64,000 nt of DNA, from assembly GCA_020845495.1 (NCBI GenBank), contig JADLFM010000166.1, forward strand, positions 1 to 64,000, given 5' to 3'. Within the stretch, counting starts at the first letter, position 1. Each line of letters opens with the position of its first letter. Below, piece by piece: positions 3,546-39,594 of the stretch. The translations under genes and the position numbers were made by a program. The stretch is from Chloroflexota bacterium (GTDB lineage Bacteria > Chloroflexota > UBA6077 > JACCZL01). The notes under the pieces are model-generated. The model saw only the letters and a program-made list of their open reading frames with translations, had not been told where the DNA came from and searched no databases.

Positions 3546-3556
3546 GGACCTGCTCC

Positions 3557-4600
3557 TCAGACCGCGGCAAGCTGGGCGCTAGCCGTGACCGCGGCGTTAG
3601 GCTCGCGGCGTCGGGTTGGCGAATCACATGCAGGTGCGTAGATCTGGTCGACGATGGCTGAGGCGAGCGTCAGGGCTCGCAACCCTTCAGTCGCCGCGAC
3701 TTTCGGTCGGTCTCCGTCGCGAATGCAGCGGACGAAGTCTTGCAACTCGAGCATCAGTGGCTCGGCCGTGGGGATGTGAATCCACTCGACGAGGTTTTCT
3801 TGCCGGTAGCGCAGTGGGCGCTCCTGGCCAGACATGAACTCGGGAATTGCCCGCCGATAGACGCGAATGCTCTTGTTCAGCAGATCGGCGGTCACGTAGG
3901 CCCCAAGCGTGGTCACCTCGAGCAGGCGCACCTTTTGTTCCGTGATGCGTGACGCCGTGAGCGTCGCGATTGGGCCATCGTCCATCGAGAGCGTTGCGAC
4001 TGCATAGTCCAGCCCAGTTGTCCGAGCAGCTCGCCCGGTTGCCTGGACGTTACCGACCTCTCGCGGGAGCAGCGTGAGTGCCAGATCGATGTCATGGATC
4101 ATCAAGTCGTACACGACGTCGGCATCAGTGCCACTTGTATCGAACGGACTCAGCCGGTGAGCCGCCAAGCCAACGACATCAAGGTCCTGCACGATCGCCT
4201 GGAACTCGAGAAAGGCCGGATTGAAGCGCTCGATGTGCCCGACCTGTACGAGGGTCGTGGAATGCTCAGCCAGGGTGGCGAGTTTCCGTGCCTCGGCCAG
4301 TGTCCGGGCAAGTGGCTTTTCGATCAAGACATGAACACCGCGGTGCACGCACTCCGCACCGATCGCGAAGTGGGTGTCAGTCGGCGTTACTACGCTGACA
4401 GCCTCGACGCGATCGAGCAGGTCGCCGTGGTCGGGGTAGAAGTCGACGCCATATGTCGCCGCTACTGCGCGTCCACGTTCGGCGAAGCGGTCGCTGATGC
4501 CGACGAGATCGACGAACGGCATATTGGCGTACACCCGACAATGGCGCTCACCCATGCGGCCCACGCCAATGACGCCAACGCGGAGTTTGCTGACGGCCAT
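3557..4600 (-). CDS. Gfo/Idh/MocA-family NAD(P)-dependent sugar dehydrogenase
   Basis: 347 aa. The Rossmann fingerprint GVGRMG is at residues 12-17 and the family EKP motif, with its catalytic-site Lys, is near 94-96. HDIDLAL near 169-175 provides the active-site acid/His region. GGAGG lies about 9 nt before the ATG at 4600. The family oxidises sugars or nucleotide-sugars. Its place directly upstream of the UDP-GlcNAc 2-epimerase and beside an acyltransferase suggests a UDP-N-acetylhexosamine(uronate) 3-dehydrogenase step such as WlbA/WbpB, but no aminotransferase is visible in the window to complete that route. Substrate is inference; family assignment is firm. Confidence 0.88.
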   Translation of the reverse strand: MAVSKLRVGVIGVGRMGERHCRVYANMPFVDLVGISDRFAERGRAVAATYGVDFYPDHGDLLDRVEAVSVVTPTDTHFAIGAECVHRGVHVLIEKPLARTLAEARKLATLAEHSTTLVQVGHIERFNPAFLEFQAIVQDLDVVGLAAHRLSPFDTSGTDADVVYDLMIHDIDLALTLLPREVGNVQATGRAARTTGLDYAVATLSMDDGPIATLTASRITEQKVRLLEVTTLGAYVTADLLNKSIRVYRRAIPEFMSGQERPLRYRQENLVEWIHIPTAEPLMLELQDFVRCIRDGDRPKVAATEGLRALTLASAIVDQIYAPACDSPTRRREPNAAVTASAQLAAV

Positions 4601-4718
4601 GGGGAACCCCTCCGAGCCTTCGAGATCGGCGACGCCGGAGCGTCGTGCAGGCCTCGCGTCTTAGCCATGCCAAACAGGGCGTTCAGACTCGAACTATCCA
4701 GGTCGCCCGCGCTCGCGC

Positions 4719-5516
4719 TTAGAGCCGTCCGACGCGCGCCGGGGCGGTGCGGTCAACGTGCGGCAAGCGCGGACCGCTTCCAATCCGCTGGAGCGACGAC
4801 GCCCGCCGCGCCCTGTCGGCTTCAGCTGGACCGGCGATCCGGGCAGGAACACCGACGGCGACGCTGTTGGCAGGGACATCCTTCGTCACCACAGCGCCGG
4901 CCCCGATCACAGCATTTCTGCCCACCTGGACACCGTCGAGCACGATCGCGCCCGCGCCGATCCAGGCACCGTCCTCGATGACGATGCCACTACCGGCGAT
5001 ACCCTGATCGAGGATCGGTAGGGATGAATCACCGTGGTTATGGTTGATTGCCAGGATTTGCGCTCCCGGCCCGATCAGGACGGCCTTGCCGATATCGACC
5101 CCGCCCTGGCCGCGGATGATGACCGACTCGCCGACGAAGGTTCGCTCACCGATCCGGATGTGCGCGTGCGGCAAGTCACGGAAGTTGAAGACGTGCAGTT
5201 CAGCATTGTGCATGATGAACGCGCCCGCGCCGATCTCGATCCCATCCGGGCAAGCATGCAGGTAGACGCCCTGGTCGAGATACGCCTTGTTGCCGAGCCG
5301 TATGTTCTCGGCGTACACCAGGCGTACTCCTTGCTCGATCGCCGCAAACCCATCAACCCGCGCGATGAGCCGATAGGCGACAGCACGCAGCCCGACGCCA
5401 ACCAGGCTCGGCACCCACCCGCACAAGCCTATGACGAGCTCCTGGAGGGCGTACCGGCGAAGGCTCGATGCCTGGCCCTGAATGTAGTAGCGCAGCTCGT
5501 CGAACATTCGTATCAC
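4719..5516 (-). CDS. Left-handed beta-helix (hexapeptide) acyltransferase
   Basis: 265 aa. Many [LIV]-G-x4 hexapeptides form a left-handed beta-helix (GVDIGKAVLIGPGAQI, GAWIGAGAIVLDGVQVG, GAVVTKDVPANSVAVGVPAR). The C-terminal GVPAR signature is typical of WbbJ/NodL/LacA-type O- or N-acetyltransferases, and HNHGDSS is the expected catalytic-His region. An N-terminal helical stretch of about 50 residues precedes the helix. The protein probably acetylates a sugar or lipid-linked glycan in this cluster, using acetyl-CoA. The start could be GTG 5516 or ATG 5507; neither has a strong Shine-Dalgarno sequence. The final 30 residues are Arg/Pro-rich and outside the domain. Confidence 0.85.
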   Translation of the reverse strand: MIRMFDELRYYIQGQASSLRRYALQELVIGLCGWVPSLVGVGLRAVAYRLIARVDGFAAIEQGVRLVYAENIRLGNKAYLDQGVYLHACPDGIEIGAGAFIMHNAELHVFNFRDLPHAHIRIGERTFVGESVIIRGQGGVDIGKAVLIGPGAQILAINHNHGDSSLPILDQGIAGSGIVIEDGAWIGAGAIVLDGVQVGRNAVIGAGAVVTKDVPANSVAVGVPARIAGPAEADRARRASSLQRIGSGPRLPHVDRTAPARVGRL

Positions 5517-5563
5517 CCATCAACCATGCGCGCCCACCAGTATCGAACGGGCTCACCACGCGC

Positions 5564-7036
5564 TCAATACGCGCCCCGTCCTCCGAGGACGGCGGGGATG
5601 GTCTGGAGCAAGATCTGCAAATCCAGCCAGATGCTGTAGTTGCGGATGTATTCCGTGCTCAGCCGCACCCGCTCCTCGTAGGCGATATCCGAGCGGCCAC
5701 GCACCTGCCACGGCCCGGTAATGCCGGGTTTCACCGTCAGGAGGTTCATCTGCCACTTGCCGTAGCGCCCAATCTCCTCCGGGCTGACCATGCGTGGGCC
5801 GATCAGACTCATCTCTCCGCGCAGCACGTTCACCAACTGAGGGAGCTCATCCAGGCTCGCTCGGCGCAGGAGCCGCCCCAGGCGCGTGATGCGTGGATCG
5901 TGCGGCGACTTATCAGTCTGGCGGCGGTCGGGGAATGGCGTCGGTATCTGACTTAGGCGCCGATCCGAGATCATCGTCCGAAACTTGAAGGCGTCGAACG
6001 TCCGCCCGGACCGTCCGACGACGCGGCGGCGATAGATGGCCGGCTCGTTCATGTCGAACCTGATGAGTACCACGAGCAGGGCCAGGATCGGGGCCGACAG
6101 AACCAGGCCGCCGGCCGCGACGATATAGTCGAGGAGCGCCTTGAGTACCGCGTCGACACCGGTGATGCGGACGCGCTCGAGGGCGAGTAGAGGCAGCGTG
6201 CCGATGTGCTGAATCCGCACCCCGGTCGTCAGAACCTCGAATAATCCCGACGACATCCGTAGCTCGAGGTCCTCGCGGTACCCGAAGCGGCCGTAGAGAT
6301 CGAGCATGTCTTCGCGGGTCAGGGCTCCGGTCGCGATGACTACCTGCTCGACGTGACACTCGCGGATGATATCGCCCAGGTCTCGAATGCCGCCGAGCAC
6401 CGGGGCGACCGTCGGCTGGACCGAGCTCGTGACTGCCGAGCCCTGCACAAACCCGACGACGCGGCCGCCGGCACGCGGGTCGCCACTGATCTGTTCGGCG
6501 AGCGCGATACCCTCACCGTCCGTCCCGACGATCAGCGTTGAGGTGAGGAGATATCCCCGGCCCCGAAGCCAGCGCACCGCTCGTCGCGCGGCGAACCGTC
6601 CCATCCACACGAGCATGATGGATAGCGCCCAGACGAGCAGCAGCCAGGCCCGTGCGATACTGGGGGTATCGTAAAAGAAGCTGATCAAGACAACGGCCAG
6701 CGCGCTCGCCGTGCATGCGCTCCCTACCCGCGCATATTCACCGTAGCCCGTGAAGAGCACTCGGCGATCGTACAGGCGCCAGAGAGCGAAGGTGCCGAGC
6801 CAGAGCGGCAGTGCCCACACCGTGACCGATGCGTAAAAGCTCACATCGTCAGTGCCCTCTCGAAAGAGGGGCAGCGCCGATCTGAAACGGACAAGATAGG
6901 CGAGTATGAGCGCGCCGAGCACGGCCACGCCATCAACGGTTGTCACCGCAATGAGTGTGACCGGCCAAGCAAGGCTCCTGTGCGCCAGCCCCAGGCGTTC
7001 GTGTGGATAGGGCAGGGAAAGGGTGCGGACGTGCAT
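5564..7036 (-). CDS. Exopolysaccharide polyprenyl-phosphate sugar-1-phosphate transferase (WbaP/WcaJ type)
   Basis: 490 aa. Four or so N-terminal membrane helices are followed by a CoA-binding-like Rossmann domain (LIVGTDGEG) and one more helix (VAAGGLVLSAPILALLVVLI). The C-terminal bacterial sugar-transferase domain has KFRTM, RLLRRASLDELPQL, GEMSLIGPRM and KPGITGPWQVRGR. These are the hallmarks of polyisoprenylphosphate hexose-1-phosphate transferases that start repeat-unit assembly at the inner membrane. GGGAG lies 6 nt before ATG 7036. This is the initiating enzyme of the cluster; the sugar, often Glc, Gal or a diamino sugar, cannot be inferred. Confidence 0.93.
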   Translation of the reverse strand: MHVRTLSLPYPHERLGLAHRSLAWPVTLIAVTTVDGVAVLGALILAYLVRFRSALPLFREGTDDVSFYASVTVWALPLWLGTFALWRLYDRRVLFTGYGEYARVGSACTASALAVVLISFFYDTPSIARAWLLLVWALSIMLVWMGRFAARRAVRWLRGRGYLLTSTLIVGTDGEGIALAEQISGDPRAGGRVVGFVQGSAVTSSVQPTVAPVLGGIRDLGDIIRECHVEQVVIATGALTREDMLDLYGRFGYREDLELRMSSGLFEVLTTGVRIQHIGTLPLLALERVRITGVDAVLKALLDYIVAAGGLVLSAPILALLVVLIRFDMNEPAIYRRRVVGRSGRTFDAFKFRTMISDRRLSQIPTPFPDRRQTDKSPHDPRITRLGRLLRRASLDELPQLVNVLRGEMSLIGPRMVSPEEIGRYGKWQMNLLTVKPGITGPWQVRGRSDIAYEERVRLSTEYIRNYSIWLDLQILLQTIPAVLGGRGAY

Positions 7037-7122
7037 CGCACGCTCCCAAGGACGTCACGTTGAAGGGCCGCCGTCGGGGCGGCTCGACCTCTCGCAGACA
7101 GCCCGCGTGATTTCACCTTGAC

Positions 7123-8718
7123 CTACGATCTAGCCCACACCAGGTGGCGAGCGCCTACCTCAATCGCGGACCGCAGCGCTCCGGGCGTGGCCAGCATCTT
7201 CAGGTAGGTCATCGCCGGGCCGGGCCGGAACGCCCACTCCCGCCACGCCCGTTTCTGCCAGCGCTCCAGGTCTTCCGCCTTGAGAGTGCCGTAGTCGAGC
7301 ACCGTGGAGCGGTCCATATCGACTTCTTCCCAGCGCGTGCCGGGCCGGAACCAGCCGTTTTCCATGACCTGGAAGAAGAACGGCGTGCCCGGATACGGTG
7401 CGGCAACGTGGAAGAGCGCGAGATCGAGCGGGAGTTTCTTGGAGAAGTCGATCGTCTCGCGAATCGTCTCCTCGGTCTCGCCGGGCAGGCCGATGATGAA
7501 GTACCCCCAGTTCTTGATGCCGGCTGCCTTCGCCCAACGCAACGCCCGCTCGGTCTTGCGAGGGTCAGCGCCCTTCCGTGCGTTCTTGAGAATCGCCTCG
7601 TTACCGGATTCGATACCCCAGGAGATCATCCAGCACCCGGCTTTCCCCATCAGCGCGAGCATCTCGGCATCGACGTAATCAACTCGGCTGTTGCAGGTCC
7701 AGCGAACCTTCAGTCGCCGCTCGAGGATCAGGCGGCAGATGCTGACCACTTGCTCGCGGCTCACGGTGAACAGGTCGGCGTACATATGGACGTTGTGAAT
7801 GCCTACCCGAGCCAGGAGTTCCAGTTCCTCGACGATCTTGTCGGGCGAGCGCAGCCGGACCGACCATTGGTAGCTCACGTGCTTGATGCAGTACACGCAG
7901 CCCGCGGTGCAGCCTCGGCCGGTGACGATGAACGTGTACGGCCCCTTGATGAGCGGGATACGATACTTTTCGAGCGGTAGCAGATGATGGAGTGGCATCG
8001 GGAGGTCGTCCAGGTCCGATACGAACGGACGATCCGAATTGACGACAATCTCGCCGCCACGTCGCCAGCCAAGCCCCTGAATCTGTGACAACTCGGGCTG
8101 ACGGTCGTCTGCCTCGTCGCGCTCTCCGAGCGCCTCGACGAGTTCCTTGAACGTGTACTCAGGCTCACCGCGCAGCACGAAGTCGAGCGCCGGGAACGGC
8201 TCGAGCGTTTCGCGGACCATCGGCGTCACGTGAGTGCCGAATGCCATCGTCCAGGCGCCGAAGCTCTTGGCCAGAAACGCACCGTACATATCGTTGGTGA
8301 GCGTCGGGGCCGTCACCTGGGTGATATAGAAGCGCGGCCGGCGGTCCCGTAGCAGCGACTCAAACTCAGGCCAGGTCATCCGATCGGCGATCGCATCGAC
8401 GATTTCAACGGAGAAGCGTGGGTGAACCATCGCCGCGAGTTGCGCGAGTGACACCTGCGGCCAGAGCATGTTCTCCCTGGATCGGCGCCCAACGCGGTGT
8501 TGGCTCCGAATCCAGATCGCCCCGTCGGGGGAGGGTGGATTGACGAGGAGCACGTCGACCTTGCTCAGGTTGCGCTGACGGGCAGCGCGGATTGCCGGCC
8601 CGGCGTCGGGGTAGCGGGCTGGACGCGCGCCCACGACGCGACGAGTTCCCAGGTTCGGGTGGGCGCCGTCCATCGCCGATGGCGAGTTGAGCACGTTCAA
8701 TTCGAACGTTCCGGTCAC
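7123..8718 (-). CDS. B12-binding-domain radical SAM protein
   Basis: 531 aa. A cobalamin-binding-like Rossmann domain spans about residues 53-200 (VDVLLVNPPSP) and lacks the DxHxxG lower-ligand motif. A radical SAM barrel follows with CTAGCVYC (Cys 270, 274, 277) for the 4Fe-4S cluster and GIESGNE for SAM/substrate contacts. The layout matches the BchE/HpnJ-like class B group, which does methylations, cyclisations and C-C rearrangements. The start is GTG 8718 behind GAAGGAG. It sits inside the glycan cluster between the sugar transferase and a mutase-like flavoprotein, so it may modify a sugar or lipid carrier; that is inference. Up to 50 N-terminal residues precede the recognisable domain. 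Confidence 0.88.
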   Translation of the reverse strand: MTGTFELNVLNSPSAMDGAHPNLGTRRVVGARPARYPDAGPAIRAARQRNLSKVDVLLVNPPSPDGAIWIRSQHRVGRRSRENMLWPQVSLAQLAAMVHPRFSVEIVDAIADRMTWPEFESLLRDRRPRFYITQVTAPTLTNDMYGAFLAKSFGAWTMAFGTHVTPMVRETLEPFPALDFVLRGEPEYTFKELVEALGERDEADDRQPELSQIQGLGWRRGGEIVVNSDRPFVSDLDDLPMPLHHLLPLEKYRIPLIKGPYTFIVTGRGCTAGCVYCIKHVSYQWSVRLRSPDKIVEELELLARVGIHNVHMYADLFTVSREQVVSICRLILERRLKVRWTCNSRVDYVDAEMLALMGKAGCWMISWGIESGNEAILKNARKGADPRKTERALRWAKAAGIKNWGYFIIGLPGETEETIRETIDFSKKLPLDLALFHVAAPYPGTPFFFQVMENGWFRPGTRWEEVDMDRSTVLDYGTLKAEDLERWQKRAWREWAFRPGPAMTYLKMLATPGALRSAIEVGARHLVWARS

Positions 8719-8743
8719 GGGCGTGCTCCTTCGTACAGGGCCG

Positions 8744-8779
8744 TGGAGCGATCGAGTGGAGCGATCGAGTGGAGCGATC
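8744..8779. repeat. Short tandem repeat, 13-bp unit, about 2.8 copies
   Basis: The unit TGGAGCGATCGAG occurs perfectly at 8744-8756 and 8757-8769, with a 10-bp third copy from 8770. It lies between the stop of the mutase-like gene and the start of the radical SAM gene on the minus strand. The third copy abuts the stop codon. Each unit contains the palindrome CGATCG. It could be a slippage product or a binding-site array. Confidence 0.8.
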
Positions 8780-10191
8780 TAGCCGAAGTACACTGGCTCA
8801 CTACCGACTCGACCGACGCGGCTGCCGATTTGCTGGGTAGCAATCTCTTCGGCAGCGCAGAACCCCATCTCGATCGCGTGATCCTGGTTGATGTAGCGGA
8901 ACAGTCCCTGCCGGCCACAGACAATCAGATTGGGCCAGGACGCCAGGTGATAGGCGAGCTTACCGAGGTTGGCCTCAAACTTCAGGTCGTACGTCGGGTA
9001 GGCGTTCCGTGTTCGGCTGAAGAAGTGCCCGCTGACGTCCGACGCGCGAATCAGTCCCGCGTCGACGAGCGCTCGCACCGACCTCTGATAGAGCTCCGAT
9101 TCGGGCGCGTTCCAGACGTCGTCGCCCACGTCACAACTAATTTCCACCGTCAGCGAGGTCTTGCCAGGCGGTGCGGCCTCAGACGAGAAGTTCTTCATCT
9201 CTGAAATGCGGTTAAAGACGGTGCGGGTGTCCGGGAAGTAGATCCAGTGATCCTCGGTAACCGACGGGCGATCGAGCATCAAGAACAGGAAGATCATGGC
9301 TCGGAACTGGATCTGCGACGCGGCATCCAACACGTCAGATGGAGCCGATGGCCGCAACGAGCGAACGAGCGGCGAGATCGGGACCGTCGAAATGAAGAAG
9401 TCGCCGCGGACCTCGTCGAGCACGCCTTCCCGTTCGACAAGCACGGACTCGACCCGCTCGTCTCCACAGGTCACTCCGGTGACCCGCGAGTTGAGCGAGA
9501 TCCGACCGCCGCGCCTTTCGACTTCCTCGGCCATCCGCTCGTAGATCCGGCCAACCCCCTGATCGGGATACAGGAATTCGGCCTTGAAGGGTGAGTGGTG
9601 GAAGTCGTTGTCCTCTCGCCTGAGCTTCAGCACGCGGAGCATCAAGTCCCACAGGTCAATCACAGCCACCCGTTGCGCGGCCCAACTGGCTGCCAGCCGG
9701 CTCGGGTCGCGCCCCCACACCTTGGCGGTGTACGGGCCAAAGTAGACATCGTACAGCCGGCGTCCGAAGCGGTTGACGACCCAGGCCTCGAACGAGTCGT
9801 CCGTAGCCGGGCGTAGCTTGCTGCGGACCCGCGTCAGGAGGAAGTCGGCGAAGCATGCAGCGCCGAGCGCCGGCGAGAGGCTCGTCAGCAGGTTTCCCGC
9901 CGACAGCGGGTAGGTGTAGAAGTTATCGCGAAAGTAGACCTGGGTCTTGCAGATGCGGGTAGGCAGGTCGCCCATCAGTCGACGGATCTCCGCGACGATC
10001 GCCGGATTCGCCGAGTGAAACCGATGGGGGCCGAAGTCGAACAGGTACCCGTCACGGCGGATGGTGTGGGCGAGTCCGCCGACGTACCCGTGTGCTTCGA
10101 GCACTTCGACATCCCAACCACGCTCGCTCAGCTTCCACGCCGCACCCAGCCCGGCCGGCCCGGCGCCCAGGATGACAACTTTGCCCGTCAC
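8779..10191 (-). CDS. FAD-dependent oxidoreductase, UDP-galactopyranose mutase/protoporphyrinogen-oxidase-like
   Basis: 470 aa from GTG 10191, chosen because GGAGG sits about 7 nt upstream and the Rossmann motif then begins at once (VVILGAGPAGLGAAWKL). The ADP-binding GxGxxG is followed by a conserved Glu (EVLEAHGYVGG). The middle has a UGM-like pattern (YFRDNFYTYPLSAG, YDVYFGPYTAKVWG), and the C-terminal FAD-contact region is YINQDHAIEMG. Relatives in glycan clusters are annotated as amine-oxidase-fold flavoproteins or mutase homologues. An NDP-sugar epimerase gene lies directly upstream, which favours a nucleotide-sugar role, but redox chemistry on a lipid is also possible. A longer form from 10284 would add an Arg-rich tail with no domain support. 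Confidence 0.82.
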   Translation of the reverse strand: MTGKVVILGAGPAGLGAAWKLSERGWDVEVLEAHGYVGGLAHTIRRDGYLFDFGPHRFHSANPAIVAEIRRLMGDLPTRICKTQVYFRDNFYTYPLSAGNLLTSLSPALGAACFADFLLTRVRSKLRPATDDSFEAWVVNRFGRRLYDVYFGPYTAKVWGRDPSRLAASWAAQRVAVIDLWDLMLRVLKLRREDNDFHHSPFKAEFLYPDQGVGRIYERMAEEVERRGGRISLNSRVTGVTCGDERVESVLVEREGVLDEVRGDFFISTVPISPLVRSLRPSAPSDVLDAASQIQFRAMIFLFLMLDRPSVTEDHWIYFPDTRTVFNRISEMKNFSSEAAPPGKTSLTVEISCDVGDDVWNAPESELYQRSVRALVDAGLIRASDVSGHFFSRTRNAYPTYDLKFEANLGKLAYHLASWPNLIVCGRQGLFRYINQDHAIEMGFCAAEEIATQQIGSRVGRVGSEPVYFG

Positions 10192-10295
10192 CGTCCCCCT
10201 CCGTCTTGGGCGGATGGCCGCCCGAGCTCTCTCACGTGGCGCTCTCGCCTGTCGAGGCTCGTCCTGTCGATGGTTCGTCCGCACACACTGGCGAG

Positions 10296-11231
10296 CTATG
10301 GTGCGCCGATTCCTACAGGATCCCCTCGAAAGGCCGCGACGGTCCTGACCAGCCCCACGGCGAGCGGCACGCTCGCCTTCCAGCCCAGTTCAACCTGGGC
10401 GCGGGCACAGTCGAAGTACGCTGAGCGAAGGTCTCCAGGCCGCCTTGGAGCGTGGGCAGGCTCGACGATCCGTCCGATTGCCCGGCACAACAGGCTGTAG
10501 ATCTCGTTGACTGTCGTGCCACGGCCGGTCCCGATGCAGAATCGCTGGCCATCGCCGCGGGTTGCCGCCAGCAGGTTCGCCCGCGCCACGTCCTCAACGT
10601 AGACGTAATCGCGCGTCTGCTCGCCATCCCAGTGAATTGTCGGGACGCCGCCATCCAGTAGTTGTCGGGTAAAGATGGCGACGACGCCGGCCTCGCCGTA
10701 CGGATCCTGGCGCGGTCCATAGACGTTGCCGTACCGGAGCGCCGTAAAGGTAACGCCTCGGTCGAGCGCGTAATAGCGCAGATAGTGTTCGGACACGAGT
10801 TTCGAGATCCCGTACGGCGACTCCGGCCATTGTGGATGCTCTTCGTCCAGGGGGAGATAGCGCGGGTTCCCGTAGGTCGCGCCCGACGAGGCGAATACCA
10901 CCTTACGGACGCCGCATCTCGAGCACGCTTCGAGCAGGTTGACGAGACCGACAACATTGACGCTCGCATCGTGGATCGGCCGGTCCGTCGAAACCTTGAC
11001 CGAGCTTTGCGCGGCCAGATGAAAGACAACCTCTGGTCGGACATCGTCCAGAACGGGGCCGATCTCGGGTGCCACCACGTCGGTTGCAAAGAAGCGCGCC
11101 CTGGGGTGAACGTTCCTCACGTTACCGGTCGCGAGGTTATCCACGACCGCCACGTCGTGCCCCCCGGCGACGAGCATGTCGACGAGATGAGAACCGATGA
11201 AGCCAGCCCCGCCCGTTACCAGCGCTCGCAC
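10296..11231 (-). CDS. NAD-dependent nucleotide-sugar epimerase/dehydratase (extended SDR)
   Basis: 311 aa. GGAGFIG at residues 7-13 binds NAD, SSGATYG near 115-121 carries the catalytic Ser/Thr region, and Y140-x3-K144 (YGISK) is the SDR catalytic pair. LRYGNVYGPRQ is typical of UDP-glucose/galactose 4-epimerases and related NDP-sugar epimerases. GTG 11231 has GGAGG 5 nt upstream. It is the first gene of the minus-strand glycan cluster visible here and probably supplies UDP-Gal or a similar precursor, which would suit the mutase-like gene downstream. Exact specificity is not decidable. Confidence 0.9.
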   Translation of the reverse strand: MRALVTGGAGFIGSHLVDMLVAGGHDVAVVDNLATGNVRNVHPRARFFATDVVAPEIGPVLDDVRPEVVFHLAAQSSVKVSTDRPIHDASVNVVGLVNLLEACSRCGVRKVVFASSGATYGNPRYLPLDEEHPQWPESPYGISKLVSEHYLRYYALDRGVTFTALRYGNVYGPRQDPYGEAGVVAIFTRQLLDGGVPTIHWDGEQTRDYVYVEDVARANLLAATRGDGQRFCIGTGRGTTVNEIYSLLCRAIGRIVEPAHAPRRPGDLRSAYFDCARAQVELGWKASVPLAVGLVRTVAAFRGDPVGIGAP

Positions 11232-16795: not shown

Positions 16796-19700
16796 TTAGC
16801 GGCGGACGTCGAGCGCGATCAGGGCACGCAATTCGGCGTCCGCGACGTAGAGTGTCCCGTCGGGACCAACAGCAACCCCGACCGGGGCGCGCACGATGCG
16901 GCCCTGGCGCGTGGTAGACACAACGCCGGCAGGCGCACCCTCGGGCGTGAAGCGGCGGATGCGCCGGGCCGCCGGCTCCGTGACCCAGACCGAGCCGTCG
17001 GGTCCGATCGCCAGGTGTGCGCCGCGCTCGGTATCCGACGACAGCACGCTCCAGGTTCCAAGGACATGGCCGCCGGTATCGAGGCGAAACACCGTGCCGC
17101 CCTCGCCATTGACGACGTAGATCTGGCCGTCAGCCCCGACCGCGACGTCGGTCGGCTGGCGCAGGCGCTCGGCTCCGCCCACATCTGGCCCGATGATGCT
17201 GCCGATCGTCCCGTCCGCGCGCAGCCGCACGATGCGGTTGCCGCCGGTGTCGGCGATGTAGAGTGACCCATCCGGCCCGACTCCGACCCCACGCGGCCGG
17301 TATAGTCCGAGCGCCGGCCCGGCGAAGACACGGTCAGCCGTGCCGTCAAGACGTAACCCGACGAGCCAGCCCTCCTCGCTGTCGATGACCCAGACGGTGC
17401 CATCAGGGCCGGCCGCGACGTCCGATGGCTCGTGTACGTTCGGGGGAGAGGCGAGCGAGGTGGACGTGTCGTCGTGTACCGTCAGCAACGACGCCGGCTG
17501 TACTGCCGTGACCAGTGGCGTTCCATCGGCCGCGACCGCCACACCGCGCGGCTCGGCCTCAAGGGACGTCAGGCGATGCACGCTCGCTTCGTCGAGGGCT
17601 TCAAGCGTGGTCGATACGACGGCTGGCGGGGATATGATGCGTGGCACCGGCCCGTCAGGCGGTTGGAGCCGCTGGGTCGGGATCGGGGTCAGGTCGTCGC
17701 CGGGCGGCGCCCACAGCACGTTGAACCGAGATGGCCCGGCCTCGTCGAGGAATCGTACGCGGATCGGGTGCCAGCCCTCCCCCAGTAGTACGGTCGTCGG
17801 CGGAGCATCAGACCCTTCGACTCGAAGGACCGGCTGCTCGTCGATCCAGAGCGCGGCCGGGCCAGTGCTGTCGAGGCGGAGCCGATAGGCTCCGGAATCC
17901 GGCGCATCGACCTCGCCGAGCCACTCGACGGAATATGGACGGGGCAGCGGCGGCTCGGCAACGTGGCGGGCGATGTAGCGGTCGATGTGCGCGAGGGTGG
18001 CCGGGCCGTCCCAGGTTGTGCCGGCGCGATAGATGCCGAGGAGGCCGCTTGCGTCGCGTTGTTCGCGAAAGAGGAGACCGGGCGGAATCGGCGTGAGGCC
18101 GCTCGCACCCGGCGGTTGCCAGCGGACGGCGAGCGTCGTCCCAGGTACGACCTCTGCCGTGATCCGAAGGCGCTGGTTGCCCGCTGCCAGATGCGCCCAC
18201 GCTTCCTGGCCAGCCCCGAGCAGAGGTACGTCGTTGAGATCCAGGCGTGCCCCGGGCGGACCATCGAGCCGGAATCGGTACTCGCCGAAGTGCGGTACCG
18301 CGAGCGCCGTAAAGATGTCCAGCGTTCCCTGCGCGGCGTCAAGATTCGGCAACGGCCAGGACAGGTCGAGCGAGTCGACCGTCTCGCGGAAGATCCGGCC
18401 CCGGCTCGGCGGAGCGAAGCGCACCGTCACGCCGCGTGCCGCCCGAATTTCTGAGGCTGGAACGTCGATCGAGCGGACTGCAACCTGACTGTCGAGGGGG
18501 GAGCGAGTGCGATCGGTACGCGTGTCCGAGTAGAGCCGGTCGACGTCTTCGACGGCGGCTTCGAGGTCGCCCGGCAGCACGGCGGCGACCGGCCCATCCT
18601 CGCGAAAGGGCAGCGATTGAGATGGATCGAGGCGGCGTAGCTCCTCTCGCGTACGCGCCAACAGGAGGACCGTTGGGTCGCGTTGCCAGTCATCGCTGAC
18701 GTAGATCGTTCGACGATCCGCGAACCGCGAGATTTCCCGACCAGCGGCCGTTTGCGGAAACGACCACGCCGCCCAGACCGATGCGTCAGCCGGAAACGTG
18801 ATGAACAGCGCATGGAGGTTGGCGGCGACGGTCGCCAGGACGAGCAAGCTGGCCAACTCGGGGCTCCAGAGCAGGCGGGATGATCGGCCCGTCTGGCGTC
18901 CAGCCTCGACCACGGCTGCCAGCGCTCCGCCGGCCAGGAGCAGCGCTGGCGGCAGTGCGTGAAGCGCCAGGGCCGCGTCCGGACCAGCAGTTGGAGAGGC
19001 GCGGAGAGCGGAGGCTAACCCGAGCGCCAGCCAGATGACGAGCGGCGTCCAGGCACGTTCGCGCACCCGCACGAGCGCGAGCCCCAGGCCAAGGACGAAC
19101 AAGGTACCGGTCACCGGGTCGAGCATCGGTCGACCGGGCACGTTCTGGCGTGGGCTGGCGTCGCCCCTGACGTTCAACAAGCCGGTCACGGCAAGCAGCC
19201 GGCCATACAGGTCCGGCTCGGTGGTGACCAGGAGGGTCGTGCCCTCCCAAGACGCGGCGACAGACGCGCGCGAAGCGCCCGAACGAAGATCGGCGCCTAC
19301 CCCGGCCGTCTCGAGCGGTACGCCAGGTTGAACGACGCCGCAGAGGACCGGCACGAGCGCGACCAGCAGGCCGGCGGATCCGCCGTGTACGACGAGGGGC
19401 CAACGCCTGGGATTGGCATTCGCGCAGAGCCAGATGTGACAACCGCGCCGTGCAAGGCGTCCTGACGGCGTCGGCTGGCCCGGACGGGGACCGCCCGTTG
19501 AGTGACCCTGACGACGAATCCAGGGCAGTCCACCTGCGCCAAGCTGCCACGCCAGCATCGGCCCCGCCACGACGAGGCTGGTCCATGACACCTGGAGCGC
19601 TAACCCGAGCGTGACCCCGGACACCGCTGCCAACGCCGGGCTGCGTCGATGAAGCGCGTGACAGAACGACGCGAACGCAAGGGTTTCCGCCGTCACGCCC

Positions 19701-20602
19701 CAGACCTGATAGCCCCAGCCACCTCGACTCAGCAGCACGTGCCACAACAAGGTCGCGCCAAGCCCGGCCGCGCCGAGGCCGGCCCCAGTCCCGAGCAAGG
19801 TACGGCCGAGCAGGAAGATCGCGGGGATGAACGCGACGCCGCCCAACGCCTCTGTCAAGCGGAGGGCGGCCGGGGATGGGCCGAGCAGGCCGACCGCGGC
19901 GACGGTGAGCGCCTGGAATGCCGGCAGGCCGTGGACCGGTACTCCCTCGGCGCCCGTGGCGCTAGCCCGGCCAAGCGTGTCCAGAGCCGTGAGACCAAGC
20001 CGCGCCTCGCCCTCCCAGACGCCGGGCGGGAGGTCGTCGAGCGCGTAGAGTCGTGCTCCGCCAGCGGCGACGATCGCAGCAAGCAGGAGCAGCAGTGGAC
20101 CCAGCCCGTCACGACGGAGGGTGACGTTTGGGCGCATCCACCCGAAGGCCGTGAGCAGCGCGACGAGCGCCGCTGCCCACACGCCCCAGGCAAGCAGCGA
20201 TGCGCGCTCGGTCAAAAACAGGAGCGCCGCGATGATGCCAAGTGTGCCCGGGACGACGATGGCGCGTGGCCCGGTGCCTGCCAGTGATGGCTTGATGGTG
20301 GACGAGGTCGTCAGGCAGGGAGTGGCGTCGGCGCCCGCTGGCAGGGACACGGCGTCGGTGACCGAGGGCGGCTCGACGAGAGCCTCTCGCCACCGAGCGT
20401 CACACCCAGGAGCGAATGCGACGCGCGAGACGCCGATGACGAAGACGACGGCACCGAGTACCAGCAGCGGCAGACCGACGACGCGTCCATCGCCCGCGAC
20501 CAGGAGTTGGCCAATCAAGGCCAGCCCCAGCCCCAGGACGACCCCAGTTTGACCGACGAGCCGGGCGCGCCGCGGGTGCCGGCGCCAGGAGAATCTCGGC
20601 AC
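16796..20602 (-). CDS. Giant membrane protein: PMT-type glycosyltransferase, PA14-like modules and NHL propeller (copy A)
   Basis: 1268 aa from GTG 20602 (GAGGAG about 11 nt upstream); the frame is open to 20821 but that extension is Arg/Pro-rich. The N-terminal half has about 12 membrane helices and PMT/ArnT (GT-C) features: the first external loop reads PPGVWEGEARLG and a later loop RPMLDPVTG. Two beta-rich extracellular regions follow, the second PA14-like (DSGAYRLRLDSTGPAALWIDEQ). The last 250 residues are repeated GVAVGPDGTLYVAD units of an NHL beta-propeller. The paralogue at 28569-32564 has the same order. In copy B the loop reads WFDEAQRG; here the Asp of that DE pair is Gly (codon 20009-20011), so transfer activity is doubtful. 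A membrane glycosyltransferase with a surface lectin or sensor part is inferred. Confidence 0.85.
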   Translation of the reverse strand: MPRFSWRRHPRRARLVGQTGVVLGLGLALIGQLLVAGDGRVVGLPLLVLGAVVFVIGVSRVAFAPGCDARWREALVEPPSVTDAVSLPAGADATPCLTTSSTIKPSLAGTGPRAIVVPGTLGIIAALLFLTERASLLAWGVWAAALVALLTAFGWMRPNVTLRRDGLGPLLLLLAAIVAAGGARLYALDDLPPGVWEGEARLGLTALDTLGRASATGAEGVPVHGLPAFQALTVAAVGLLGPSPAALRLTEALGGVAFIPAIFLLGRTLLGTGAGLGAAGLGATLLWHVLLSRGGWGYQVWGVTAETLAFASFCHALHRRSPALAAVSGVTLGLALQVSWTSLVVAGPMLAWQLGAGGLPWIRRQGHSTGGPRPGQPTPSGRLARRGCHIWLCANANPRRWPLVVHGGSAGLLVALVPVLCGVVQPGVPLETAGVGADLRSGASRASVAASWEGTTLLVTTEPDLYGRLLAVTGLLNVRGDASPRQNVPGRPMLDPVTGTLFVLGLGLALVRVRERAWTPLVIWLALGLASALRASPTAGPDAALALHALPPALLLAGGALAAVVEAGRQTGRSSRLLWSPELASLLVLATVAANLHALFITFPADASVWAAWSFPQTAAGREISRFADRRTIYVSDDWQRDPTVLLLARTREELRRLDPSQSLPFREDGPVAAVLPGDLEAAVEDVDRLYSDTRTDRTRSPLDSQVAVRSIDVPASEIRAARGVTVRFAPPSRGRIFRETVDSLDLSWPLPNLDAAQGTLDIFTALAVPHFGEYRFRLDGPPGARLDLNDVPLLGAGQEAWAHLAAGNQRLRITAEVVPGTTLAVRWQPPGASGLTPIPPGLLFREQRDASGLLGIYRAGTTWDGPATLAHIDRYIARHVAEPPLPRPYSVEWLGEVDAPDSGAYRLRLDSTGPAALWIDEQPVLRVEGSDAPPTTVLLGEGWHPIRVRFLDEAGPSRFNVLWAPPGDDLTPIPTQRLQPPDGPVPRIISPPAVVSTTLEALDEASVHRLTSLEAEPRGVAVAADGTPLVTAVQPASLLTVHDDTSTSLASPPNVHEPSDVAAGPDGTVWVIDSEEGWLVGLRLDGTADRVFAGPALGLYRPRGVGVGPDGSLYIADTGGNRIVRLRADGTIGSIIGPDVGGAERLRQPTDVAVGADGQIYVVNGEGGTVFRLDTGGHVLGTWSVLSSDTERGAHLAIGPDGSVWVTEPAARRIRRFTPEGAPAGVVSTTRQGRIVRAPVGVAVGPDGTLYVADAELRALIALDVRR

Positions 20603-20932
20603 GGGTGACGGCGCTCCTCTCAACGGCCCTAGATTATGGACCGCCGACCGCCCGGGCGGCTCGGGCGACACTCGTTCCCGAAGTCCGCGGGCCGGGTTCG
20701 AGGGTCGCCAGGGCCGGGCTCGAGGGGCGGTGAGGCGCTCGAGCGAGAGAACAGGTGGCGATGCTGGGCTCAGCTTCTCCCCTGCTCGAGCGTTGCCGAA
20801 TGTGCGGCCCGGTGGATACACTCCAGGAGCGCAAGGGCAGGCTCGTCAGGTCACCTACCCGATACATGTCTCACGACGATCGACCCCCCGCCCGTGCCTC
20901 TGCTCCGTTGCCCGACTACCCGGAGGTACGGG
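20603..20932. other. Divergent intergenic region
   Basis: 330 bp between the divergent copy A glycosyltransferase gene and the HEAAH protein gene. A CATAAT box on the minus strand (20633-20638) is a possible -10 for the former, without a good -35. On the plus strand TTGCCG (20793-20798), an 18-nt spacer and TACACT (20817-20822) form a modest sigma70-like pair about 110 nt before the next start. No gene is evident. Confidence 0.4.
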
Positions 20933-24341: not shown

Positions 24342-25025
24342 TCAGCGGGGTTGTTGACCGGCTCGCTCGAGGAGGGCACGGGTTGCGTCGAGACATCCGT
24401 CTCCGTGACAGGGCAGCGGCATCACGCCGACCACGCAGTCGCCGTCCATGCGGGGGAAGGCGATAGGGTGCCGTAGTTTGGTGCCGTCGCCGAGCATGAC
24501 GGTCGGCGTGCCTCGTACCCGGTAGCGCTCCTGCCCAAGCTTCGCTTCGGCCAGCAGCTCCGCTCTGGCAGTGCCGCGCCCGAGATCGCGAGTCAGTCGG
24601 TCCACGTCGAGCCCAGCCTCCTGCGCGACCTCGAGCAACACCCTGGGGTTCCCGATGTCACGGCTCTCCGCGAAGAACGCGCGTCTGATCCGTAGGTCGT
24701 AGTCGAGGAAGCGGGTCTCGTCCTGGAGCGCCGCACAGCGGGCCGCCTCGAAGGCCGGCAGAGTCGTGGTCGGCCAGGATGCACCGTTCCAGGGTTTGAA
24801 CTCGGCTCGTGGCTCCTGGATCGCCGCGAGCCACCACTCCTGCTCGAGAACGCCCCGCGGCGCAGCTTCACCGCCCATCGCTTCAAGCGGGTACGGGCGC
24901 ACGCGCAGGCGGACGCGGTCCTGGTAGTCGGGATAGATGTGGTGCAGGCGCACGGCCGCGATGTAGCACCACGGTCAATAGTACTCCGCCCACTCCCAGA
25001 GCTCTGGCCGGTCAGATTCGATCAT
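24342..25025 (-). CDS. DsbA-family oxidoreductase, probable selenoprotein (TGA read as Sec, UPWC motif)
   Basis: 227 aa if the in-frame TGA at 24975-24977 is read as selenocysteine. The ATG at 25025 follows GGAG by 8 nt. Upstream of the TGA the frame gives PELWEWAEYY; downstream it continues PWCYIAAVRLHHIYPDY, exactly the strand, active site and helix of FrnE/DsbA-like thioredoxin folds, with U17-P-W-C20 in place of CPWC. An all-helical insert and the cis-Pro loop GTPTVML near the C terminus complete the fold. There is no other stop or frameshift. A hairpin just after the TGA fits a bacterial SECIS. If translation instead began at GTG 24953, the product would lack the active site. Alternatives are a recent nonsense mutation or a sequencing error. 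The role is probably a thiol-disulfide or 2-hydroxychromene-isomerase-like redox function. Confidence 0.8.
24939..24972 (-). promoter_or_regulatory. Candidate bacterial SECIS element
   Basis: On the mRNA, GUGGUGC starting 3 nt after the TGA pairs perfectly with GCACCAC ending 36 nt after it (7 bp). Inside, CGC pairs with GCG around the 6-nt loop GGCCGU. The apical loop begins about 17 nt after the UGA and has G in its first two positions, as expected for SelB-dependent bacterial elements. Pairing was found by eye, with no energy calculation. Confidence 0.55.
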
Positions 25026-28568: not shown

Positions 28569-31500
28569 TCAGGGCAGGTTGAAGCCGACGAGCGACCCGC
28601 CATCGGCGTCCCCTACGACGAGTCGGTTGTCGACCACGGCGACGCCGACCGGCCTGCGAACGTCGGGGCCAAGCGGCCACTGCTCCACTCGCGTCGAGTC
28701 TGGAGCGTGAACGATGAGCGCCCGCTCTTCGGGGGCGGTAACGACCCAGCCGCTCCTGCCGAAGGCCGCCACTTGTGGCCCGAGCACCGTCGTCGAGTGA
28801 GGCATGCTCCAACTCGCGAGCCGCCTGCCGTCCCGCTGCACCTTGACAATTCGGTCCGCGCCGGCCTCGGCGACGACGAAGGTGCCGTCGTCAAGCACAA
28901 TCGCCGAGGTCGGTTGACTCAACCCCCGAATCACGTCGACCGTGCCGTCCGGCCGGCGCACGAGCAGGCGATCGTTTCCGGTGTCCGCAAGCACGAGCGA
29001 AGCCTCCGGGCCGAGCGATATGCCGCGCGGGCCGTAGAGCGGGTAGTCAGCGAACAGCGACTCCCCAACGGTCCCATCGCTCTCCAGCCGGTATGCCTTT
29101 CCGGTCGCGGCATCGACGACGGCAAACGCGCCGTCCGGAAGCGGCGCGACAGCCGATGGCTCCTCGAAGGCACCTTGCCCGATGCTGCGCACGACGCCGC
29201 TCGGCGAAACGAGGGCCACGCCCCGCCGCCGCGCGTCCGTCGCGACTAGCGAACCGTCAGGCGTCGCCGCCAGGCCGCGGGGCTGGCCGAGCGCTCCGCT
29301 CCCGCCAACCGTCTCGGGCGAGCGGAGCGGCGGCCCTGGCAGCGGCATCTCCGGCGGGGCAATCGGGGTGAGGCGCGGACCGCTCCCTCCGCCTGCCACA
29401 GGTCCTGACGGAGTCGGTAGGGCTGCATCGGCCGGTAGCGCCGCTCCGACCAGGTAGGCCGGCCAGGGGCGAAGCGCGCTGGTCGGAATGACCTCGCGAT
29501 TGTGGTCTGGCGGCTGCCAGAATGCGGTCACGTTCGAGAAGTTGAGGTCGTCGACGAAGTGGACCGTGATGTCGTGCCAGCCCGCTTCGAGCTCGGCCGT
29601 GCCATCACTGTATACATTCGGCACCGTTGCGGTGGCGAGCGTGACGCCATCGACGGCAATTGAGCTGGTGCCAACGCTGCTCACCCCGAAATGGTAGACG
29701 CCACTCCGTTCGGCACGCAGCGCGCCGGACCACTCGATGGTGTACGGTCGAGGAGCCGGTAGCAGGTGGACGCGTAGCTCGACGTTGGGGTCCACCTGCT
29801 CCACGACCGGCTCGCCCGTCGGCACCCGGCCGGGGTAGACGCGGCCCAGCAGGCCGGTCGGCCGAACTGGCGGAACGGTGAGCAGGTTCGCGGTCACTGC
29901 CGCGACCTGTCCCGTCTCCCCTCCCCAGCGGACGGCGATCGGCTGCTGCCCCATGTCGACGCCGTGCAAGCGCAGGGCATGGTTCCCGCGCGCGAGCCGG
30001 ACTAGGCCCTCGCTCCCGCCGTGGAGAAGTTCGACGCCATCGAGGGTCAGGCTGAGCTGGGGCGGGCCGTCGAGTGCGATCCGATAGGCGCCGTAGGCCG
30101 GAACGGTCCAGGTGGTCGTCGCCGTCGCCTCGAAGGGTGCCGGAATCGGCGCGGCGCCCGGCCAGCCCAGTTCCAGCGATGACGCTCGCCGAAGTACAGC
30201 GCGCTCGCCCGACCGGTACTCGATGTCCACCCCTCGATTCGCCTGGAGAACGTCTGGAGACAGTCGAAAGCCGTACACCGCTACCGATCCCGACTCAGGC
30301 GGCCGCACCTCCGTCCGAGCCGCACCCGGATACAGTTCGGTGATGCGGCCGGCAACGTCTGGGCGGTCGGCGATGAAGATGGCTGCCTCGTGGTCCGTGA
30401 CTGGCAGGTCGCTGGCCGGGTCGAACGGCGCGTACGGGCGCGGCTCGGGAACAATGAACCCGATGCTCGGCTGATTCAACCAGGACGGCTCCAGGTACAC
30501 CTTCGTCGTCGGCGGAAGTTGAGCGATCTGGCGAGCCGCCTCGGTCTGGGGCGCGGAGAACTCGAGCCAGGTCCGTGAGTCCCGCTCCTGCCTGGTGAAG
30601 AAGCGGTCGACGTTCATGATGCCCGTGCCGACGAGCAGCATACACACGGCGACCAGCGATGGCAGCGACGACCCGAGGACGCTCCGAGGAGGTTGCCACC
30701 GTATCGACCCAGGGTCGGCTGCCATAGTCAACACCCCGCCCACACTCGACGCTCGGGCAGGCCAGAGCTGGGCCGACGATGCTCCCCTGAACCACGACCC
30801 GGTGTGAGGCGTGACCTGCGCCAGCAGTCGATCCGCCGCCAGCCAGAGAGTGCCGACCGGGAGTGCGGCCAGCAGCAGCGCGGGTACGATGGCGCCGATG
30901 GCGCGGTGGCTCTGGGGTGCTTCCCAGGTCAGGGAGAAAATGCCACCGGCGAGCGCGGCCGGCAGCCACACCAGCACGATCCAGCGTTCGACCCGCCAGA
31001 AGCGCGTCAGGGCGAGGGCGAGCCCCGCCACGGCCAGTGCGCCGGTGACCGGATCGAGCATCGGGCGGCCGGTCCAGTTGTGGCGGCCGTTCGAGTCGCC
31101 CCGGACGTTGAACATCAGCAGGTGCGCCCGGACGTTCCGCACGAGCGGCTCCCAGCTTCCCGCCTGCTCCACCTCTTTGAAGACCGTCACGGTGCCGGCC
31201 CGCGCGGCGAACTGACCGGGGTTCGTGATCGCGAACTGCGCGAACGGACCGGCCGTCAGCAGGAACGCCAGCGCACAGACGACGAGGCCGAACGTCTGGG
31301 TCCGAAGAAACGCCATCCGTCCGGCGGCGAGTTGGTGAAGCCCGACCACCGCGAGGATCAGCGGCGTCAACTGGCTCGTATAGTAGAAGTACAGCCCGGC
31401 GCCGGCCGCGACGCCGGCGCTGCCAAGCAGAAATGGGCTGCGGCGGCGCAGTCCGAGCACAAACAGCGCGGCGGCGAGGATATCCCAACTGACCGAGATG

Positions 31501-32564
31501 ATGGCCGGGAGCGCGATCCGGCTGAAGTTCAGGTGCCAGGTCAACCCGATGGCGAGACCCGCCGTGACGACCGCGACGCGCTGTCCGAACAACACCCGCC
31601 CAAGCAGGTAGAGCGCCCCAACGCCGAGCGTGCCGCCGATTGCGACCGGTAGCCGCAGCGCGAACGGATCGCGGCCATACACGGCTACGAGCGGAGCGAT
31701 TGCGTACCAGAGCCCTGTCGGCTCCTGAAGAATGCCGGCCGCGAAGATCGGGCGGTAACCTGGATCGGCGAGCATGCGCAGCGCCTCGAGGCCCCGCTGG
31801 GCCTCGTCGAACCAGATCCCCTGGGGGATCGTGCGGATCGCCCAGACGCGCGGGAGGAGTGCGAGGAACGTCAGCAGTCCGAGCCAGATCGAGTCTGTGC
31901 GCGACCACGAGCCCGTGAGGACCCGTACGCGTGCCCTTGTCACCAGCCACAGCCCGGCCAGCAGCCCGACCACCGCCAGCACGTGGAGCACCCAGGCCAG
32001 CGTGAGTAGACGATTGGCGCGAAAGAGCGCCAGCGCAACCGCTTCAACCGCGACCGCGGCACAGAGCACGGGAACGCCGCGTCCTGCGATTGGCCAGACA
32101 TGTGCCGCGTCGGAGGACGATCGCTCCTCGCCGGGGGCGTCACTCTTCGGCAGACCCAGGCGCACGACGACGGCGAACAGCATCCCGACGCCGAGGAGCG
32201 GCCAGAAGGCGCCGAGCGTGTCAGGCTGTGCCAAGAGCCGCCCTTCGAGCACGACACCAGTCGCCAGCAGGCCCGCACAGATGGTCCAGGCAGCCACGGC
32301 AAGCCAGGGCCGCACGAGCGCGGGCACCCGACCGCTCAACCGGCTGGTTGGCCGGCCGGTGCAGCGTGCGGTGGTAATTGTGTGACCGGGTGCGGCGAGA
32401 GCGGCGCGCTCGACCGGCCGCTCCGGCGTGGCCGGCCGTCGAAGACTGCCGAGCCAGCACGCCAGCGCGGCCGGCCACCCGGCGCGAGATATGGTCGCCA
32501 GCCCGAGCGTGAGTGCGCCCGCGACGATGGCCAGGTACCCGAGAACGGTTGCCAGTTCGTTCAT
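28569..32564 (-). CDS. Giant membrane protein: PMT-type glycosyltransferase, PA14 and NHL propeller (copy B)
   Basis: 1331 aa. The N-terminal 700 residues have about 13 membrane helices in the GT-C/PMT pattern. The first large external loop has IPQGIWFDEAQRGLEAL, with the conserved Asp253-Glu254 pair of dolichyl/undecaprenyl-phosphate-sugar-dependent transferases. RPMLDPVTG follows a later loop. A PA14-like beta domain (SGVYHFGVSSVGTSSIAVDG...WHDITVHFVDD) sits around residues 950-1050. The last 220 residues form an NHL-type propeller (SLGPEASLVLADTGNDRLLV, GTFVVAEAGADRIVKV). It is paralogous to copy A. It is probably a lipid-linked-sugar transferase with a large surface-exposed sensing or binding part. 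No clear Shine-Dalgarno precedes the ATG; an N-terminal helix starts at once. Confidence 0.87.
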   Translation of the reverse strand: MNELATVLGYLAIVAGALTLGLATISRAGWPAALACWLGSLRRPATPERPVERAALAAPGHTITTARCTGRPTSRLSGRVPALVRPWLAVAAWTICAGLLATGVVLEGRLLAQPDTLGAFWPLLGVGMLFAVVVRLGLPKSDAPGEERSSSDAAHVWPIAGRGVPVLCAAVAVEAVALALFRANRLLTLAWVLHVLAVVGLLAGLWLVTRARVRVLTGSWSRTDSIWLGLLTFLALLPRVWAIRTIPQGIWFDEAQRGLEALRMLADPGYRPIFAAGILQEPTGLWYAIAPLVAVYGRDPFALRLPVAIGGTLGVGALYLLGRVLFGQRVAVVTAGLAIGLTWHLNFSRIALPAIISVSWDILAAALFVLGLRRRSPFLLGSAGVAAGAGLYFYYTSQLTPLILAVVGLHQLAAGRMAFLRTQTFGLVVCALAFLLTAGPFAQFAITNPGQFAARAGTVTVFKEVEQAGSWEPLVRNVRAHLLMFNVRGDSNGRHNWTGRPMLDPVTGALAVAGLALALTRFWRVERWIVLVWLPAALAGGIFSLTWEAPQSHRAIGAIVPALLLAALPVGTLWLAADRLLAQVTPHTGSWFRGASSAQLWPARASSVGGVLTMAADPGSIRWQPPRSVLGSSLPSLVAVCMLLVGTGIMNVDRFFTRQERDSRTWLEFSAPQTEAARQIAQLPPTTKVYLEPSWLNQPSIGFIVPEPRPYAPFDPASDLPVTDHEAAIFIADRPDVAGRITELYPGAARTEVRPPESGSVAVYGFRLSPDVLQANRGVDIEYRSGERAVLRRASSLELGWPGAAPIPAPFEATATTTWTVPAYGAYRIALDGPPQLSLTLDGVELLHGGSEGLVRLARGNHALRLHGVDMGQQPIAVRWGGETGQVAAVTANLLTVPPVRPTGLLGRVYPGRVPTGEPVVEQVDPNVELRVHLLPAPRPYTIEWSGALRAERSGVYHFGVSSVGTSSIAVDGVTLATATVPNVYSDGTAELEAGWHDITVHFVDDLNFSNVTAFWQPPDHNREVIPTSALRPWPAYLVGAALPADAALPTPSGPVAGGGSGPRLTPIAPPEMPLPGPPLRSPETVGGSGALGQPRGLAATPDGSLVATDARRRGVALVSPSGVVRSIGQGAFEEPSAVAPLPDGAFAVVDAATGKAYRLESDGTVGESLFADYPLYGPRGISLGPEASLVLADTGNDRLLVRRPDGTVDVIRGLSQPTSAIVLDDGTFVVAEAGADRIVKVQRDGRRLASWSMPHSTTVLGPQVAAFGRSGWVVTAPEERALIVHAPDSTRVEQWPLGPDVRRPVGVAVVDNRLVVGDADGGSLVGFNLP

Positions 32565-38972: not shown

Positions 38973-39594
38973 CGGCTGGCCCCTTCCGGCACGACCGGCT
39001 CAACGCGCCGTCTCAGCGGCCTGCGCCCGGCCGCCCACATCTGGGCGACGGGGAGGGACTGCCGAATGGGGCAACAGGCGGGTACGTGAGACCCGTCGCA
39101 CGTCGAGCGGCCTTTGTCAGGGCGTCGCCGCCCTGGTTTGCTCCGCTCGTGACGACCGTGCCGGCCGGGGGGCCATCCGCCGAGTCTTTCGATCGACCCC
39201 CGCCTCGTCACCCGGCTGATGCCGGGCCTGGCGCTCGCGTTGCTCGTGATTCTCGCTGCTGCCCGTGTCGGTGCTGACCTGGAGCGTCTGCCTCCGTCGT
39301 ACTCTCGAAGCGCATGCTACCAGCCGCCGCGTCGCGACCGCTAGCGTTCTGGGGCAGAGATCTGGTTGAGTGCGCCCGTTCTCGCCTCGTCGAGCGCGTC
39401 TACAGTCGTCAGTCCACGCCGGTCTGGCGGCCAGGTTTGACAGGCGTTCATTCGGAGGGCCAGCATTACCGCGCGTCCCTGCCATACTAGCAGGGTGACC
39501 GGACTGAGCGGCAGACGGCCGGGCGGCCCGGCGTCCCAAGACCCGAGCGGCGAGTGCCATGACACGGCCGCCGCTCCTCGACTGGAGCGCAGCG
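38973..39594. other. Intergenic region between glmS and the FAH-family gene
   Basis: 622 bp between divergent genes. No frame has coding character. A TTGACA at about 39436 has no matching -10 at normal spacing. Promoters for both flanking genes should be here but are not clear by eye. Confidence 0.5.

Follow-up and report, generated by a model that had tools for sequence, protein, structure and literature searches.

The minus-strand gene at positions 25025-24342 of the window (the whole 64-kb stretch of DNA that was analysed) very probably encodes a selenoprotein, namely a FrnE-like protein of the DsbA family with the active site U17-P-W-C20, in which selenocysteine (Sec) would be the nucleophilic residue. 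The frame is intact around a single internal TGA, the aligned codon exchanges between TGA and Cys over 46 genomes, Sec machinery is present in most of the tested relatives with TGA, and the RNA past the TGA is under constraint. The preliminary description, made from the sequence alone, had proposed a probable selenoprotein, and these lines of evidence support it.

Gene structure and protein fold

The gene extends from the ATG at 25025 to a terminal TGA at 24344-24342, giving 227 residues with codon 17 as Sec, and the sole internal stop of this 227-codon frame is the TGA at 24977-24975 (codon 17), the predicted Sec codon at the first position of the active site, which is aligned with Cys or TGA in relatives. 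The frame reads MIESDRPELWEWAEYY-TGA-PWCYIAAVRL...GTPTVML...LPCHGDGC..., and the second Cys of the UPWC motif, Cys20, is encoded by TGC at 24968-24966. A likely ribosome-binding site, GGAG (25037-25034), is located 8 nt 5′ of the ATG. The conventional gene call starts from GTG at 24953-24951, inside the constrained element treated below, and comprises 203 amino acids without the active site. Pro174 (24506-24504) is at the cis-Pro position of the GTPT loop, and the C-terminal CX4C (Cys206 and Cys211; 24410-24393), a feature of the FrnE subfamily, is found in 90% or more of the rows in the alignments.

Translated through the TGA, the protein matched the Pfam family DSBA (PF01323) at 63.6 bits (gathering score 25.6, E-value 2.7e-17) over residues 11-181, a range that spans the TGA codon. 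The preliminary description was thus exact in placing a single TGA at the first Cys of CPWC, and its remaining observations on the gene (homology on both sides of the codon, an intact cis-Pro loop GTPTVML, a ribosome site before the ATG, and loss of the catalytic motif from the GTG start) were all borne out.

The predicted structure (pLDDT 94.9) has a thioredoxin-type fold with a helical insert, in which strand 8-13 is followed by helix 18-33; UPWC (residues 17-20) is at the start of this helix in the model and the alignment, and the GTPT loop is at 172-175. DsbA-family structures were matched, and the closest folds to the model include FrnE, DsbM and a Nitrosomonas PDI-like protein; the PDB profile match to FrnE had an E-value of 1.5e-12. 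The product is regarded as a FrnE-like member of the DsbA family, probably cytosolic. Three clade members were scanned with NCBIfam, and no model exceeded its cut-off with any of them.

A rough scan for further frames joined by a TGA in the window returned two ordinary gene junctions only. The scan says little, because the DsbA-type gene itself, masked by an antisense ORF, was not recovered either.

The active-site codon in relatives

A protein search produced 1198 hits at E≤1e-3, and the best 120 of these were examined, which left 119 after removal of the window's own shortened form (P0002). Among these best 119 of 1198 homologues, 81 were of full length and had Cys at the site (38 CPWC, 26 CPWS, 14 CPWT, 2 CPFC and 1 CPYT), and 38 started after it. 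All but two of the 38 late-starting entries (36/38) begin with [VM]RL, the residues expected from initiation at the aligned GTG. The simplest reading of these entries, drawn from their sequences, is that their genes may have TGA at the same codon and that the gene caller took the GTG five codons past the second motif Cys.

Genome searches, in partly overlapping sets, gave matches in 18 of 400 genomes of Chloroflexota (the phylum of G001, a Chloroflexota bacterium), 11 of 395 of Gemmatimonadota (the phylum of G003, a Gemmatimonadales bacterium), 13 of 396 in the class of G056, 9 of 158 in that of G008, and all 10 genomes reached through loci. No further copy was found in the classes of G324 (47 genomes) and G035 (3 genomes) at the thresholds used. 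Overall, 47 distinct genomes were matched, with thresholds that varied by search from 1e-3 to 1e-50. The active-site codon was TGA in 22 of these, TGC or TGT in 24, and uncovered in one (L088); an extra partial Cys copy (L011) was excluded from the count. The comparison with relatives for Cys or a conserved TGA, suggested in the preliminary description, therefore returned both, and the scattered stops named there as a sign of decay were not seen, the homologues having Cys or TGA at the codon and a single relative (L098) having a later TGA.

The close TGA copies carry UPWC (L022-L025, L027, L028, L080, L082-L084 and L086), as do those from Gemmatimonadota (L092-L096); UPWS was found in L089 and L090, and UPWA in L091 and in the distant copies L032, L034 and L037. 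With the window included, 17 TGA genes thus encode UPWC, two UPWS and four UPWA. CPWC, CPWS and CPWT are all found in the Cys proteins, with the CX4C retained in 90% or more of the rows; the distant TGA member L034 (UPWA) is also without the CX4C.

Some further matches were of a different kind. The frame of L098, with Cys at the active site, ends early, 136 codons past the site, and this gene is possibly broken or misassembled. Distant DsbA-like second matches of 26-27% identity, with one internal TGA each, were located at G004:C12:311548-312057 and G007:C13:2162-2677. The TGA pattern scan of viral contigs gave no hits, and plasmid records contained relatives of 24-29% identity only.

Exchange between TGA and Cys

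A tree was constructed of 39 rows with DNA (22 TGA, window included, and 17 Cys); the distant TGA genes were included, and L091, L098, L030, L031, L033, L035, L036 and L038 were omitted. The fewest TGA/Cys changes on this tree were 10 (9-11 in bootstrap), of which the strong branches alone force 4. Shuffling gave a mean of 12.9 changes, and 38 of 500 shuffles were as low as observed. A quick tree of 147 rows, database proteins included, required 8 changes between rows with the TGA seen and Cys rows, or 17 if the shortened entries are taken as TGA. This pattern is that of Sec and Cys replacing each other repeatedly and not that of a single lost gene.

RNA downstream of the TGA

Constraint was expressed as z for four-codon windows against redraws from each gene's own codons. 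In 11 TGA genes (the window and 10 others), codons +7 to +10 after the TGA, which are GCC GTG CGC CTG in the window (24956-24945), formed the most synonymously constrained of 100 overlapping windows (z -8.66), and other stretches reached z -5.2 at the strongest (codons 149-155). Within the set, +7 GCC, +8 GTG and +10 CTG were invariant, and +9 was CGC (9 genes) or CGT (2 genes); synonymous codons 5′ of the TGA vary as usual in the same genes. In 14 Cys genes, the corresponding stretch had z -2.90 and ranked fifth of 47 windows, the top window being elsewhere (z -4.12). Six close TGA genes found later, of which L093-L095 are mutually near-copies, had GTG, CGC and CTG throughout and GCC in five. 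At the same four codons L091 reads GCC GTG CGC CTG, and L089 and L090, near-copies of each other with about 42% identity to the window, read GCC GTG CGC TTG.

The constrained codons are probably the loop and stem of a SECIS element. When nucleotides 13-34 past the TGA were folded, a five-base loop, counted by eye, appeared at the same position in 16 of the 19 TGA genes, always with CGUGC, and in 4 of 17 Cys genes, one of them with CGUGC. Local hairpin energy was at most slightly better than that of synonymous redraws (Fisher p 0.07 in TGA and 0.53 in Cys genes). The RNA sets omit the distant TGA genes L032, L034 and L037, together with L091, the cut L098 and the distant Cys genes L030, L031, L033, L035, L036 and L038.

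In the window, a hairpin GUGGUGC...GCACCAC is predicted at 24972-24939 (-15.1 kcal/mol, loop 18 nt past the TGA), a weak candidate for a bacterial SECIS, since the generic model accepts most Cys genes as well. The window satisfies the published bSECIS constraints, as given in PMC13188914. They are passed by 14 of 14 TGA genes, but 12 of the 14 Cys genes and 75% of synonymous redraws pass them too, so the bSECIS model does not discriminate. For the 11 closest sequences, RNAalifold gave an unconvincing helix with no compensatory pairs. The RNA past the TGA is constrained in TGA genes in a manner that the protein does not explain; the constraint does not by itself establish the exact structure.

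The invariant GTG at +8 would also be expected if the functional product were the 203-amino-acid protein started from GTG 24953, with the upstream peptide not joined, and 38 of the best 119 database proteins do start past the site. This short form would, according to the model, lack the entire CxxC as well as the fold's first strand (residues 8-13, ahead of helix 18-33), and the Cys relatives are open through this point. Upstream of the TGA, moreover, PELWEWAEYY is conserved with ordinary synonymous variation, and the invariant GTG fits an RNA element equally well, since +7, +9 and +10 are constrained along with it. A restart at the GTG is consequently considered highly improbable.

A TGA by itself cannot tell a Sec codon from a true stop, due to a nonsense mutation, a sequencing error or a decaying gene. 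Twenty-two other genomes have TGA at this codon, which already speaks against a true stop for the family; in the window the frame has no other stop, the protein is conserved on both sides of the codon, and the RNA past it is under constraint. Termination at codon 17 is accordingly scarcely credible, and a selenoprotein is the preferred reading.

Selenocysteine machinery

Genes for Sec machinery (selA, TIGR00474; selB, TIGR00475; tRNA-Sec, RF01852) were searched for in 13 of the 22 TGA genomes. Scores over the cut-off were obtained for selA and selB in 12 of the 13 each, and tRNA-Sec was over its gathering score in 10; G227 was without all three, and G035 and G432 were without tRNA-Sec over the gathering score. 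Among the Cys genomes, selB was over the cut-off in 16 of 20, tRNA-Sec in 14 of 20 and selA in 3 of 5. The exceptions here comprised G515, without all three, G497, without selA, and G006, G009 and G010, with neither selB nor tRNA-Sec over the cut-off. Of 14 control genomes, two had selB and one had selA over the cut-off, and five had tRNA-Sec, or three at a stricter E-value. The anticodon was TCA in all 20 tRNA-Sec loci read, seven of which were from TGA genomes.

Presence of the machinery does not serve to distinguish TGA genomes from Cys genomes, and it is to be taken as a prerequisite that is present and not as proof of decoding, because many Cys genomes possess it too. Within the 64-kb window tRNA-Sec was not found, and 40 of the 48 window ORFs, six of them without any match, gave no Pfam match (1e-5) to the sel families. 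The source organism itself would be expected to possess the machinery elsewhere in its genome.

That a suppressor tRNA reads the UGA as Cys or Trp rather than Sec is barely conceivable: bacteria with unusual UGA-recoding tRNAs exist, but the aligned residue is Cys and not Trp, the gene's own terminator is TGA, the constraint on the RNA is localised at the codon, and most of the TGA genomes searched possess SelA, SelB and a tRNA-Sec with anticodon TCA. PMC5424206, consulted for reading of UGA as Cys, contains neither the term 'UGA' nor 'opal'.

For the selenoprotein, the following mechanism may be proposed. The UGA would be decoded by tRNA-Sec and SelB, directed by an RNA element that lies within the coding sequence shortly past the codon (24972-24939, core 24956-24945), with Sec inserted at residue 17. 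The Sec17 selenolate would attack a substrate disulfide or peroxide, and Cys20 would resolve the intermediate. By analogy with the proposal for Deinococcus FrnE, the C-terminal CX4C (Cys206/Cys211) may then regenerate the centre.

Gene neighbourhood and other features of the window

In three TGA loci, the Sec-DsbA gene is followed by an AhpD-like protein with GCAYC...H (L024:2153-2668, L027:2282-2803 and L028:2308-2784), identified by Pfam CMD in L024 and L027 and by sequence likeness in L028. An HhH-GPD DNA-repair protein was observed after the AhpD-like protein in L024 and L027, and directly after the Sec-DsbA gene in L080. Other neighbours differ (10 neighbour ORFs of seven loci were scanned), and in the window the gene is adjoined by phosphofructokinase and PspA; no operon is therefore claimed.

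Elsewhere in the window, a glmS riboswitch/ribozyme was identified at 39094-39246 on the minus strand (75.9 bits), upstream of a protein with SIS and GATase domains (38972-37194) that is presumably GlmS. Two like-built proteins of 1341 and 1331 amino acids with PA14 and NHL, one of them also with PMT_2, are encoded at 16796-20821 and 28569-32564. A series of genes related to sugars and polysaccharides (UDP-GlcNAc 2-epimerase, Gfo/Idh, hexapeptide transferase, sugar transferase, radical SAM, amine oxidase and epimerase) lies at 2448-11231 on the minus strand.

Implications and comparison with known systems

The gene adds a well-supported selenoprotein to Chloroflexota, for which the table of a 2006 survey lists three (PMC1794560), and to Gemmatimonadota. 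Named relatives of the protein, such as P0018, suggest Chloroflexota as the phylum of the window as well. The selenoprotein reading accounts for the apparent absence of an active site from many of the family's database entries, and an annotation model for the clade would correct the shortened entries. The clade also provides, on a single scaffold, a natural set of exchanges between Sec and Cys, together with an RNA constraint that accompanies the TGA, in which the cost and benefit of Sec could be examined. Among the papers listed in literature searches on the clade, none was on it by title and start of abstract.

Among characterised proteins, FrnE of Deinococcus radiodurans (5cnw, 5co3, 5cp1 and 5xwh; 18-22% identity) has Cys where the window protein would have Sec. 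In FrnE a C-terminal tail carries the CX4C (239-244), as against Cys206/Cys211 in the window protein; many members of the FrnE subfamily, though not all, have a CX4C besides the CxxC, and the window protein is one that does. The top fold score (Z 20.8, tied with 2in3) was obtained with DsbM of Pseudomonas aeruginosa (5hfg/5hfi), a cytosolic disulfide reductase, at 2.2 Å over 188 residues and 21-23% identity. The only NCBIfam hit, NF041057 (Rcas_1661 family thioredoxin-like (seleno)lipoprotein), scored 14 bits against a cut-off of 190, and the window protein is not a member of it.

DsbA-like selenoproteins were, as the preliminary description stated, already known from surveys. UxxC forms have been in print since 2005, when nine sequences (COG2761) were reported from the Sargasso Sea (PMC1088965); a table of the bacterial-genome survey includes four DsbA-like selenoproteins (PMC1794560), the GOS data contain DsbA 1 and 2 with UxxC and DsbA 3 with UxxV (PMC2398784), and a 2026 review has 'DsbA-like protein form 1', PF01323 (PMC13188914). 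As described in these sources, the known proteins are, like that predicted for the window, of PF01323 type, with Sec first in UxxC and with Cys homologues. Three bacterial hosts are named there (Anaeromyxobacter, Desulfovibrio and Desulfotomaculum), besides marine metagenomes and Asgard archaea, whereas the clade of the window is found in Chloroflexota and Gemmatimonadota.

It is possible, though on balance doubtful, that the clade constitutes a separate, so far uncatalogued 'seleno-FrnE' family over these two phyla, with repeated Sec/Cys swaps and with the CX4C, not the neighbouring Cys, as redox partner; distant members without the CX4C (L034) would then be one-selenol enzymes. For this reading the published Sec-DsbA proteins were compared with the PELWEWAEYY/CX4C clade by their descriptions. 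Since DsbA-like UxxC selenoproteins are known, the window gene adds a strong member to an existing type.
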